Source of the DNA: Pectinatus cerevisiiphilus
GTDB taxonomy: Bacteria > Bacillota > Negativicutes > Selenomonadales > Selenomonadaceae
Direction of reading: 5' to 3'
DNA length: 64,000 nt
Assembly (NCBI RefSeq): GCF_004341685.1
Contig: NZ_SMAA01000003.1
Coordinates: 124,001-188,000 of the forward strand
Notes under the pieces: model-generated
Databases searched by the model: none
Told to the model about the DNA's origin: nothing
What the model saw: the letters and a program-made list of their open reading frames with translations, nothing else
Shown: positions 15,647 to 29,362 of the stretch, in pieces
Position numbering within the stretch: position 1 is the stretch's first letter
How the letters are laid out: every line of letters begins with the position of its first letter
Program-made: the position numbers and the translations under genes

Positions 15647-15705
15647 AAGTATTTATGTTTGTAAATTATATATTAATAATGCTTAATCGTGGAGGAGAAT
15701 ATAAT

Positions 15706-23945: not shown

Positions 23946-24638
23946 ATGAAGGACATAAATGTCTTTGAAACAAAGAAAGTGTTGAGAATCGGACAGAGGG
24001 TCGAGATTGACAAAATAGACAGCGAAGATGATGAGCCAAGTGAAGTTTATGCCAGTAGGATTGAAGACATAAAAGGCTCTATGGTGTTCTTGGCATTACC
24101 CGTAGACAGTATGCTAAGACCCGTTATCTTAGAAACTGGGCAAACCGTTGAGGGGCGCATTATTGATGATAAGGTTCGCGTATATTCCTTTACAGCTCAA
24201 TATGAACGCATAGGCAGAGTCAATATTCCCGTATGGATCGTAGAAATGGCACCAACTGTCATTCGTAACCAGCATAGAGAATTTGTGCGCATCCGGGTTT
24301 CCATCCCCATACAGGTCGCAGTGGCTGAACAAGATGGAAGCATGGAGGTCCCTTTTCACACCCATAGTGTTGATGTAAGCGGGAACGGTATCTCTTTTTT
24401 ATCTGCCGAAGCGCTACAACCAGGAACGATGCTCACAATTGAAACTATACCAATTCCTTCTGTAGGACGAATACATACTTTTGTGGAGGTAAAGCGTTGT
24501 ATACTTTCCCAAGACAAACAAAGCTATTTAATTGGGGGAAAATTCACTGATTTGTCCAAGCAAATTCAAAATAAGTTAGTGAAATATTTATTTAGCAGGC
24601 AGAGAGAATTTATAAAAAAAGGAATTATTCCAAAATGA
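23946..24638 (+). CDS. PilZ-domain flagellar brake protein (YcgR-like)
   Basis: The 230-residue product has an N-terminal YcgR-N-type beta domain (about residues 15-100) and a C-terminal PilZ domain with the cyclic-di-GMP signature: R111EFVR115 and D143VSGNG148. Both halves of the ligand site are intact. Such proteins slow or stop the motor when c-di-GMP rises. The start is ATG 23946 behind TGGAGGAATTAGG; GTG 23943 is immediately upstream. It lies between flhG and the cheB remnant, linking second-messenger control to motility. Confidence 0.9.
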   Translation: MKDINVFETKKVLRIGQRVEIDKIDSEDDEPSEVYASRIEDIKGSMVFLALPVDSMLRPVILETGQTVEGRIIDDKVRVYSFTAQYERIGRVNIPVWIVEMAPTVIRNQHREFVRIRVSIPIQVAVAEQDGSMEVPFHTHSVDVSGNGISFLSAEALQPGTMLTIETIPIPSVGRIHTFVEVKRCILSQDKQSYLIGGKFTDLSKQIQNKLVKYLFSRQREFIKKGIIPK

Positions 24639-24651
24639 GGAGGGAATATCG

Positions 24652-24752
24652 TTGATTCGCGTTTTGGGCGCAGGTGGTCAAGGATCTTGGCTAATCCGTT
24701 TTTACCTGAAGGCTGTTTTTAAGTTATCTGGGTAATTATCAATGACAAAAAT
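24652..24752 (+). pseudogene. cheB: Degraded 5' part of cheB (receiver domain remnant)
   Basis: A strong ribosome site (GAGGAGGG, 24637-24644) precedes TTG ATT CGC GTT TTG at 24652, which encodes MIRVL, the standard first strand of CheB. The frame then departs from the family and stops at TAA 24733-24735. The frame shared with the downstream part reads DSRFGRRWSRILANP at 24654-24698, like the CheB segment DDSAFMRRVLSxIL, and is cut by TAA at 24720-24722. Much of the receiver domain, including its acidic pair, is missing. The pattern shows small deletions and frameshifts in an older intact gene. Confidence 0.75.
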
Positions 24753-25673
24753 ATGATAAAGACTGTTTTTAAATTAAAATTAGACTGTCTTATCTTTGCT
24801 GCTAATATACCGCTTATGAATAATTTGCAAACACTCAAAACGATAACGAGAAGCACTCCGCTGTCTGTTGTAATGATAAGTAGCCTTATGAAAGCAGGAG
24901 CTGAAGGAATAATAAAAGTATTGGGACTGGGTACAGTGGATTTTATAAATAAAATAAGAGAGGGCATTGGATACATAGATACCATTAGTAATGAAATAAT
25001 CAATAGAGATTATGCTGCTACGGTGGATTTAAAAACTACTAAGCAGTATATCGATAACAATCAACTTTATTTGCCAAAAAAAATATCACCGCTGACCAGT
25101 TCCCATAAATTAGTTGCAATAGGAACTTCAACAGGCGGGCCAAAAGCTCTTCAACAGGTAATAACTAAACTACCAGCTGATTTACCTTGTGGTGTAGTAA
25201 TTGTCCAGCATATGCCACCAGGGTTTACCAAGTCATTGGCAGAAAGACTTAACCAGCTTTCTGCGGTTACAGTAAAAGAAGCAGAAAATGGGGATTATAT
25301 AAAACCTGCACATGTTTATATAGCACCTGGCGATTATCATATGCTTGTGCGCAGAGAAGCTTTGGGAGAAGTTATTTCCCTTAACCAGAATCCGCCCATA
25401 GGCAATCATCGACCGTCAGTGAATGCTCTTTTTGAATCTGTCGTTCCATTCGGTAAAAGTTTGGTAGCTGTCATATTGACAGGGATGGGAAACGACGGTG
25501 CTGAAGGGATGCAGCACATAAAAAGAGCAAATGGATACATAATTGCTGAAGATAAATCCACTTCAGTCGTATACGGAATGCCGAAAGCTGTAGTTGATCT
25601 TGGCATAGCAGATGAGGTGTTGCCAGTAGATAGGATAGCTAGCGCGATAGTTAATGCTGTAAAAAGAAATTAA
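24753..25673 (+). CDS. cheB: CheB methylesterase domain with truncated, non-phosphorylatable receiver
   Basis: CheB removes methyl groups from (or deamidates) chemoreceptors. The C-terminal methylesterase domain is complete: catalytic Ser126 in GTSTGGP, His153 in VQHMPPGFT and Asp248 in LTGMGNDGAEG (numbering from ATG 24753). The receiver survives only from about its fourth helix: LIFAANIPLMNNLQTLKTI matches the phosphorylation strand, but the acceptor Asp is replaced by Ala. VVMISSL and GTVDFINK follow as in real CheB. No ribosome site precedes ATG 24753, so expression may depend on restart after the short TTG frame that stops 17 nt upstream. In the family the unphosphorylated receiver inhibits the esterase, so constitutive activity or loss of function are both possible. 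Confidence 0.8.
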   Translation: MIKTVFKLKLDCLIFAANIPLMNNLQTLKTITRSTPLSVVMISSLMKAGAEGIIKVLGLGTVDFINKIREGIGYIDTISNEIINRDYAATVDLKTTKQYIDNNQLYLPKKISPLTSSHKLVAIGTSTGGPKALQQVITKLPADLPCGVVIVQHMPPGFTKSLAERLNQLSAVTVKEAENGDYIKPAHVYIAPGDYHMLVRREALGEVISLNQNPPIGNHRPSVNALFESVVPFGKSLVAVILTGMGNDGAEGMQHIKRANGYIIAEDKSTSVVYGMPKAVVDLGIADEVLPVDRIASAIVNAVKRN

Positions 25674-25694: not shown

Positions 25695-27749
25695 ATGGAC
25701 ACTAATCAATATATGGAGATGTTTTTGGAAGAATCAAAAGATCATCTGCAATCACTTAATGAACGTCTCCTGGATCTTGAAAAAGACCCCGCTGATTCTG
25801 ATGCAATAAATGAGATTTTCAGAAGTGCGCATACCTTAAAAGGAATGTCAGCGACAATGGGATTTAATGTTATTGCTGAACTTACCCACGACATGGAAAA
25901 TGTTCTTGATTTAATACGTACTGATAAAATTAAAGCTGATGAAGATATTATTGATGTTTTGTTTAAATGCATCGACGCATTACAACAGATGGTTGATAAT
26001 ATCAATAATGGTGAACCAGAAGATTCTGTTGATGTAAAAGAACTTGTAGACAAGCTGAATTCTATAGCTGCGACTGGTGGAGACAAGGCTCCAGCAAGCT
26101 TTAAGGCTAAAACAACGGCAGAACCTGCAGCAAAGAAAGATGCCAATAGTGAAAATCCCCCGGCAAATATTGAGCTTTCAGATATAGACATAGATTTGAT
26201 AAATAGTGCTAAAAAATCAGGATTAAGAGCCATGCATGTTAAAGTCACTCTGGCTGAAACATGCGTCTTGAAGACAGCACGCTCATATATGGTAATGTCC
26301 GCTTTAGATGAAATCGGCGATGTAATAAAGTCTATTCCTTCTACAGAAGACTTAGAACAGGAAAAATTTGATCTCACATTTGATGTCATTTTGTTGACTG
26401 GTGAAGAAGAACAGAAAGTAGAGTCTGTTCTTATGAACATTTCAGAAATAGCCAGAGTAGACATAGAATTGATAAAAGTACCAGATGCCCCTAAAAAAGA
26501 AGTAACGACTGCAAAGAAAGCAGCAGTGCCGGCAGTAGCCAAAAAGAATGCTCCAGCAGTTAAAAAGCAGGCAATCCAGCATCATGATAATATGAAAAGC
26601 GGACAATCTGTTCGTGTTGGCATAGAAAAACTTGATTCATTAATGAACTTGGTCGGCGAATTAGTCATCAATAAGACAAGGCTTGAACAGATAGGTAATA
26701 CGCATCGCATTGCTGAATTAGTGGAAACAGTGGAACAGATGGATCGGGTAACCGGTGATTTGCAATCGATAGTGATGAAAGTAAGAATGGTTCCTGTTGG
26801 CCAGGTCTTTAATAGATTCCCGCGTGTTGTACGCGATTTGGCAAAGGAACTGAATAAGGAAGTAAACCTTACTATCGAAGGTGAAGATACCGAACTTGAT
26901 AGAACAGTAATTGACGAAATAGGCGATCCGCTCGTCCATCTTATTCGTAACTCAATGGACCATGGAATAGAACATCCAGATGAACGTGAAGCAAAAGGGA
27001 AACCGCCTATCGGACAGGTTGGCTTAATCGCCAGGCATGAAGGTAATAACGTAATCATAATGGTTACCGATGACGGTGCGGGAATTGACGCTGACATCAT
27101 TCGCAGTAAAGCTGTTGAAAAGAGTGTTATAACGCAGGATGATGCCGATAACATGACTGATGCGGAAGCGGTACGGCTTATCTTTTTACCGGGTTTTTCT
27201 ACTTCCGATGTTATAACAGATGTATCCGGACGTGGTGTAGGAATGGATGTTGTACGTACTACTATCGAGGCACTGGGCGGAGTTATTGATGTTGAAACGA
27301 AAAAAAATGAAGGCAGCGTATTTAAAATTAAATTGCCGCTTACTCTTGCCATCATCCAAGCTTTGTTAGTTAATGTTCAAGAAGAAATTTATGCGATTCC
27401 TCTTGCATCAATCGATAGCACGATAAATATAACTTCTGAAGATATAAAAACTATCCAAAATAAGGAAACAATCGTAATCCGCGGTGAAATTATTCCTATT
27501 GTCCGTCTTGACCGTGCGCTTAATGTATCACATATAGAAGATAAAAAAGATGAAGAAATATATGTGGTTATTGTCCATGTTGGTGATAAAAAGTGTGGCA
27601 TTATGGTAGATAAACTTATCGGCCAGCAGGAAATAGTTATTAAAACTTTAGGAAAACTTTTATCAGGTGTCAAAGTTATTTCTGGGGCAACGGTTTTGGG
27701 TAACGGACAGATCGCATTGATTTTGGACGTCGCTATTTTAATGCAATAA
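25695..27749 (+). CDS. cheA: Chemotaxis histidine kinase CheA
   Basis: CheA is the receptor-coupled kinase for CheY and CheB. Domains in order: HPt with phosphorylated His46 in FRSAHTLKGMSATMGF; linkers and a CheY/CheB-binding P2-like region (about 170-260); the dimerisation helices (IEKLDSLMNLVGELVINKTRL); the HATPase domain with LIRNSMDHGIE, DDGAGID and GRGVGMDVV; and a CheW-like C-terminal domain (about 560-684). All kinase boxes are intact. Length is 684 residues. The ATG at 25695 follows TTGGGGGA. Confidence 0.96.
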   Translation: MDTNQYMEMFLEESKDHLQSLNERLLDLEKDPADSDAINEIFRSAHTLKGMSATMGFNVIAELTHDMENVLDLIRTDKIKADEDIIDVLFKCIDALQQMVDNINNGEPEDSVDVKELVDKLNSIAATGGDKAPASFKAKTTAEPAAKKDANSENPPANIELSDIDIDLINSAKKSGLRAMHVKVTLAETCVLKTARSYMVMSALDEIGDVIKSIPSTEDLEQEKFDLTFDVILLTGEEEQKVESVLMNISEIARVDIELIKVPDAPKKEVTTAKKAAVPAVAKKNAPAVKKQAIQHHDNMKSGQSVRVGIEKLDSLMNLVGELVINKTRLEQIGNTHRIAELVETVEQMDRVTGDLQSIVMKVRMVPVGQVFNRFPRVVRDLAKELNKEVNLTIEGEDTELDRTVIDEIGDPLVHLIRNSMDHGIEHPDEREAKGKPPIGQVGLIARHEGNNVIIMVTDDGAGIDADIIRSKAVEKSVITQDDADNMTDAEAVRLIFLPGFSTSDVITDVSGRGVGMDVVRTTIEALGGVIDVETKKNEGSVFKIKLPLTLAIIQALLVNVQEEIYAIPLASIDSTINITSEDIKTIQNKETIVIRGEIIPIVRLDRALNVSHIEDKKDEEIYVVIVHVGDKKCGIMVDKLIGQQEIVIKTLGKLLSGVKVISGATVLGNGQIALILDVAILMQ

Positions 27750-28254: not shown

Positions 28255-28875
28255 GTGTCGGACGATATATTAAATCTGTCAGCTATGCAATTGGACGCAA
28301 TAAAAGAGATAGGCAATGTGGGAGCTGGTAATTCGGCTACAGCTTTATCGCAGCTTATTAATAAAAAAATAGATATGGATGTTCCTAACGTGTCAATAGT
28401 GCCATTAGCTGATGTCCCTAATCTGGTGGGAGGGCCTGACACTATGGTCGCCAGCATTTTCTTGCGTGTATACGGAAAAGCTCCTGGCAGTGTTTTATTT
28501 TTGATGCCGCGGGAAAGTGCTTTTTATTTAGTGGAACATCTGTTAGGAGAACAAAAAAGCGCTACCGATGGCGAATTGACAGAAATGGATCAATCAGCAT
28601 TGATGGAGATCGGTAATATACTTGCAGGTGCCTATTTAAATGCATTGTCTTATTATACGAAATTAACTTTACTGCCGTCTATTCCAGCAATGGCTATCGA
28701 TATGGCAGGAGCTATTTTAAATGTTGTTATTGTCCAATTAGGGCAGATGGGTGACCATGCCTTAGTAATAGAAACTCAATTTTTGTCGGAGGACGAAGGT
28801 ATAAGCGGGCACTTCTTTTTAGTTCCAGATGTAGGTTCGCTCCAAACAATTTTGAATGCGGTAGGAGTGAAATAA
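28255..28875 (+). CDS. cheC: CheY-P phosphatase CheC
   Basis: CheC dephosphorylates CheY-P and works with CheD in adaptation. The 206-residue product has two phosphatase helices, LDAIKEIGNVGAGNSATAL and MDQSALMEIGNILAGAYLNAL, each with the conserved Glu and Asn. The start is GTG 28255 behind TGAGGTGAG. It lies just upstream of cheD, its partner. Confidence 0.95.
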   Translation: MSDDILNLSAMQLDAIKEIGNVGAGNSATALSQLINKKIDMDVPNVSIVPLADVPNLVGGPDTMVASIFLRVYGKAPGSVLFLMPRESAFYLVEHLLGEQKSATDGELTEMDQSALMEIGNILAGAYLNALSYYTKLTLLPSIPAMAIDMAGAILNVVIVQLGQMGDHALVIETQFLSEDEGISGHFFLVPDVGSLQTILNAVGVK

Positions 28876-28876
28876 C

Positions 28877-29362
28877 ATGGCTGAACTATTAAGGGTCGGA
28901 ATAGCTGACTATAAGGTAGGCCGGTCACCAAATATGATTATCAGTTATGGTTTAGGGTCATGTGTAGGAATTACATTGTATGATTCAAAAATTAAGGTTG
29001 GCGGGCTGGTTCATATTATGCTGCCTGATAGTACACAGGCACGTGCCAATGAGAACCCGGCTAAATTTGCAGATACAGGAATACCATTGTTGTTGAAAGA
29101 GATTATCGCATTGGGGGCTGAAAAATCCAGAGTGGAAGCTAAATTGGCTGGTGGATCCCAAATGTTTCAATTTGCGGGAGCATCAGACATAATGGCCATA
29201 GGCAAAAGGAATGCGGAGCTGGCTAAAAAGACATTACAGCAATGTGGGATAAGGATTATCAGCGAAGATTTGGGCGGTACTTATGGACGCACAGTAGAAA
29301 TGGATCTCAATACTGGTTTATATAAAATTAAAACCATTAATAAAGGCGAAAAAACTATTTAA
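28877..29362 (+). CDS. cheD: Chemoreceptor glutamine deamidase CheD
   Basis: CheD deamidates receptor glutamines and activates CheC. The 161-residue product has the catalytic Cys29 in GLGSCVGITLYD and His46 in GGLVHIMLP, plus AKLAGGSQMF and the GGTYGRTV C-terminal block. Start ATG 28877 overlaps no gene but lies one base after the cheC stop. Because CheD also modifies receptors, it may matter more here given the damaged cheB. Confidence 0.95.
   Translation: MAELLRVGIADYKVGRSPNMIISYGLGSCVGITLYDSKIKVGGLVHIMLPDSTQARANENPAKFADTGIPLLLKEIIALGAEKSRVEAKLAGGSQMFQFAGASDIMAIGKRNAELAKKTLQQCGIRIISEDLGGTYGRTVEMDLNTGLYKIKTINKGEKTI

Follow-up and report, generated by a model that had tools for sequence, protein, structure and literature searches.

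Phosphorylation feedback onto CheB is present in nearly all chemotaxis systems studied, and its purpose has been termed a long-standing open question (PMC5809149). CheB proteins without a receiver domain have been described: that of Campylobacter jejuni is one (PMC3879368), and the Campylobacterota F3 class is marked by a receiver-free CheB along with cheVAW and a CheA that carries a receiver (PMC9321776, PMC9239204). E. coli CheBc (residues 147-349) has no receiver and keeps catalytic activity and precise adaptation; cells carrying it show bimodal kinase activity and spread poorly in soft agar (PMC5809149). Because of this poor spreading, receiver loss is costly in E. coli.

Here we examined cheB of Pectinatus cerevisiiphilus, which belongs to a beer-spoilage genus. 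The window, the whole stretch of 64,000 nucleotides that was analysed, covers positions 124001-188000 of contig C3 in the 2.63-Mb genome (G000), a draft of 47 contigs. The local gene order is flhF-ylxH-pilZ-cheB-cheA-cheW-cheC-cheD, in which cheB is flanked by a PilZ-type gene and cheA. The same genes surround cheB in all four congeners compared, namely P. haikarae (G003/L049) and three further Pectinatus genomes; the focal species is sampled by one genome in the collections used. The congener CheBs share the catalytic triad and are 66-70% identical to the focal protein over the shared part. Their receiver is intact and includes the acidic pair and phospho-acceptor Asp, whereas in the focal gene this region is altered by missense changes, a stop and a 13-bp deletion.

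The focal CheB resembles that of the F3 class in being a methylesterase without a functional receiver (a relic remains) and the adaptation enzyme of flagellar chemotaxis. However, F3 systems have a cheVAW operon, which the focal gene order does not contain, and their CheA bears an additional receiver. Profile matches to the focal CheA identified Hpt, P2, dimerisation, HATPase and CheW domains only. The focal locus also differs from F3 in the presence of CheC and CheD and in the receiver relic within the gene. The likeness to CheBc lies in a catalytic domain that stands alone, without phosphorylation feedback; CheBc is a laboratory construct with tuned expression, whereas the focal case is natural and half a receiver is possibly still attached. 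By analogy, the Pectinatus case appears to work like F3 CheB and CheBc, yet it is not a member of F3. It is an independent variant, since receiver-free CheB was already known from that class.

Receiver lesion and intact esterase domain

The features of the locus, all on the + strand, are as follows.

24637..24654, +, old cheB ribosome site TGAGGAGGG with TTG start codon at 24652; still strong, conserved in congeners
24652..24735, +, 27-codon leader ORF LIRVLGAGGQGSWLIRFYLKAVFKLSG, product of the 13-bp deletion, ending at stop TAA 24733
24673..24678, +, acidic-pair codons, Asp-Asp in the four congeners and Gly-Gly (GGT GGT) here, by alignment
24680..24681, +, 13-bp deletion, the only indel of the receiver part, by alignment with the four congeners; position approximate
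24720..24722, +, nonsense codon TAA in the original (esterase) frame, by alignment with congeners
24753..24953, +, remnant of the receiver C-terminal half, 67 residues from ATG 24753; near-neutral on the focal branch
TTG 24921 and GTG 24936 (receiver remnant), GTG 25023 (linker), +, in-frame alternative starts
24954..25106, +, linker between the domains, open frame; evolves fast in all species
25107..25673, +, intact CheB methylesterase domain with Ser 25128, His 25209 and Asp 25494
25695..27749, +, cheA, intact, with a P2 domain and without an extra receiver; partner kinase
28255..29362, +, cheC and cheD, intact; from their presumed function, a possible alternative feedback route for adaptation

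The old ribosome site (24637-24645) showed anti-SD pairing of -12.8 kcal/mol, the strongest among the sites compared, in agreement with the strong site and old start recognised by the sequence-only reading. Its two stops, at 24720 in the esterase frame and 24733 in the start frame, were likewise found. The deletions and frameshifts it described came down, in alignment with the four congeners, to one indel (the 13-bp deletion at about 24681) and one nonsense substitution, the remaining differences being missense. The acidic pair, supposed to have been removed by deletion, is still present in substituted form as Gly-Gly. The phosphorylation-site Asp is indeed Ala (codon GCT at 24798), while the receiver-site Ser and Lys are retained in the remnant. 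The N-terminal half of the receiver is out of frame, and the remnant matched PF00072 at 19.8 bits, below the cut-off of 30.2. All four congeners have a full-length CheB with the acidic pair and phospho-acceptor Asp that define a CheB response regulator; the focal gene has neither. Because both were lost by missense, the receiver is predicted not to be phosphorylatable even if the deletion and the nonsense codon were sequencing errors. On this alignment, the receiver loss is real and lineage-specific.

Positions 24723 to 25673 form an uninterrupted esterase frame, with its first ATG at 24753 and 306 codons. Residues 121-299 matched PF01339 at 231 bits (cut-off 24), and Ser126, His153 and Asp248, which the earlier reading had listed as kept, align with S164/H190/D286 of Salmonella CheB 1A2O. 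An AlphaFold2 model built from 8 sequences gave pLDDT values of ~80-95 for most of the esterase, ~55-65 for the remnant and <50 for the linker. The esterase model superposed on 1CHD at 1.3 A and on 3SFT at 1.2 A. In the esterase gene tree, whose weakly supported deep nodes were left unused, the focal sequence falls inside Pectinatus, beside P. haikarae. This position argues against acquisition of a foreign receiver-free cheB by transfer. Judged by domain content, the focal protein still counts as a CheB because of its catalytic domain but has ceased to be a response regulator.

A search of the focal genome found one CheB and no second copy elsewhere, so the suggestion that another system took over is unsupported. 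The genome holds one CheR, the sole copy found, and 16 MCP signalling-domain matches, of which 15 exceeded the Pfam cut-off. CheW is intact too, as is a receiver protein of the CheY type at 15655.

Selection on the remnant and the esterase

Among sites invariant in the congeners, 21/51 were changed in the receiver remnant of the focal genome and 4/134 in the esterase (Fisher p = 2.7e-10); this simple count is independent of synonymous saturation. Eight neighbouring genes had 48/1560 such sites changed, a rate like that of the esterase. When each congener was taken as the focus in turn, no comparable contrast was seen; the lowest p value was 0.049 (G002).

Separate codon-model fits for each region were rejected, as branch lengths were not identifiable with synonymous sites near saturation, and a joint model with branch lengths shared between regions was used instead. 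In the joint model, omega of the receiver remnant was 0.20 on the focal branch and 0.03 in the background (p = 1.1e-13). Purifying selection on the esterase was undiminished on the focal branch, with omega at 0.032 compared to 0.030 in the background (p = 0.77). On evolutionary grounds, these values favour the unregulated methylesterase that the sequence-only reading had put forward as one option.

The focal species' own branch was then modelled in two phases, constrained and then neutral. The remnant was best fitted by a neutral fraction of 0.2 and the esterase by one of about 0.005, for which a value of 0.03 was already 3.2 lnL units worse; given near-saturation of synonymous sites between species, these absolute fractions are approximate and model-dependent. 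Receiver drift thus occupied ~12-25% of the branch and esterase drift at most ~2%; if selection on the esterase ceased very recently, the test would not show it. Halving the branch lengths shifted the figures and left the contrast between remnant and esterase in place (two scalings tried). Because the remnant was near-neutral for ~20% of the branch, compared to no more than ~2% for the esterase, the substitution patterns indicate that full selection on the esterase persisted once the receiver had been released.

Simulated neutral drift left the remnant stop-free in 16-31% of runs at the better-fitting drift amounts. The open frame through the remnant was therefore rejected as proof of translation, and the intact frame of ~300 codons, earlier held against old decay, is a weak argument when taken alone.

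A separate observation concerned cheC (28255-28875). Its omega was 0.022 on the focal branch vs 0.007 (p = 0.0025, uncorrected, 10 tests), and where the four congeners do not vary it carries 9 substitutions plus an insertion of one residue. The faster evolution of cheC could be compensation or noise.

Receiver-free and split CheB in the Selenomonadaceae

Within the same family, every one of the 14 genomes of genus g6 (L063-L076) encodes a 203-209 aa CheB made up solely of the esterase. The gene has its own ATG and ribosome site and no receiver relic, and in the 7 of 14 loci that were read directly it is flanked by a PilZ-type gene and cheA. As in the focal genome, this CheB is the only CheB match and is accompanied by one CheR in each genome. 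Its esterase is 54-59% identical to the focal one. The g6 loss is clean and complete, whereas the focal gene retains a relic. Since the focal sequence sits beside P. haikarae within a genus of intact receivers, tree and alignment indicate that the g6 and Pectinatus losses are separate. Among the matches listed, the CheB frames of the remaining relatives were mostly 350-490 aa. A literature search for reports of the g6 receiver-free CheB found none, and one for Pectinatus chemotaxis or Selenomonas CheB found nothing relevant.

Other short CheB frames were seen in the family. In one genus g3 genome (G013:C4, L094), a frameshift in the linker divides CheB in two: a 139-aa frame, whose receiver is intact, and a 295-aa frame encoding the esterase. 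The split is either genuine or a sequencing error, and with its receiver ORF intact this gene was not accepted as a receiver-free CheB. A short frame in G168:C161 was rejected as it runs off the contig, and those of G105 and G053, near contig ends, were left aside. In genus g20 (G140/L078, G141/L080) CheB is matched only by a distant 283-aa frame, which in L078 adjoins a transporter-like gene outside the che operon.

Proposed translation and regulation of the esterase

We consider it probable that cheB is midway through loss of its regulatory receiver, with a methylesterase that is still made and needed, independent of phosphorylation and always open. Ribosomes would load at the old strong site and finish the 27-codon leader. 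They would then reinitiate at ATG 24753, 17 nt past the leader stop, unless initiation takes place at an in-frame codon further downstream; from the arrangement of start sites, reinitiation at ATG 24753 is the likeliest route. No good ribosome site was found by anti-SD pairing at the in-frame esterase starts: values were -2.8 kcal/mol for ATG 24753, -5.7 for TTG 24921 and -5.3 for GTG 24936, compared to -6.8 to -10.2 kcal/mol for neighbouring genes. Promoter-like matches before the esterase were no commoner than in shuffled sequences, giving no sign of an internal promoter.

The methylesterase would strip methyl groups from chemoreceptors, opposing the single CheR. CheA would no longer be able to phosphorylate CheB, and the active site would be without an intact receiver cover. 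Behaviour like that of the engineered CheBc, which is constitutively active, would be expected. Genus g6, the F3 class and CheBc itself are precedents for the viability of a CheB that lacks the receiver. Adaptation would then rest on receptor-state-dependent methylation alone, perhaps aided by a CheC/CheD loop. We infer that the protein is made and active, and that its reduced expression compensates for the lack of inhibition; a smaller amount would be appropriate for an enzyme no longer held in check.

The stops upstream in both frames and the weak downstream start sites would also fit a recent pseudogene, in which the receiver died by missense and the deletion and stop then silenced the whole gene before the esterase could drift. 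The open remnant frame is compatible with drift as well. Silencing would have to be confined to the final ~2% of the branch, however, against receiver drift of ~12-25%, and an esterase held under selection beside a dead receiver concedes the main point. Genus g6, moreover, shows that the receiver-free state is stable, and we regard a recent pseudogene as unlikely. In a draft of 47 contigs, the 13-bp deletion and/or the stop might instead be sequencing or assembly errors, the true protein being full length with a phosphorylation-dead receiver. Yet Asp-Asp to Gly-Gly, Asp to Ala and the 21/51 changed conserved sites are independent of both lesions, and it is improbable that a 13-bp error and a separate nonsense error would both strike the only degenerate domain; this explanation is very unlikely. 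Least credible is programmed frameshifting that joins the leader to the esterase frame and yields a fused, receiver-dead protein. The two frames do overlap, at 24723-24733, but no slippery heptamer was seen in these 11 nt and the RNA fold there was no better than shuffles (z = -0.67). A programmed frameshift was accordingly rejected as the route into the esterase frame.

A broader reading for the family is tentative and on balance doubtful. It holds that CheB receivers have been shed repeatedly in the Selenomonadaceae, where CheB phosphorylation would be dispensable because another route already supplies activity-dependent feedback. CheY-P acting via CheC and CheD would be the most plausible such route, and P. 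cerevisiiphilus would be transitional, with its CheC adjusted.

The principle of a receiver-free CheB is already known; new here are an independent case in transition and a completed parallel. This natural loss offers a comparison of one operon with full, half-lost and absent receivers across sister species and a related genus, by which the role of CheB phosphorylation becomes testable. It suggests that the receiver is dispensable outside the Campylobacterota, in a pathway with CheC and CheD and without an extra receiver on CheA.
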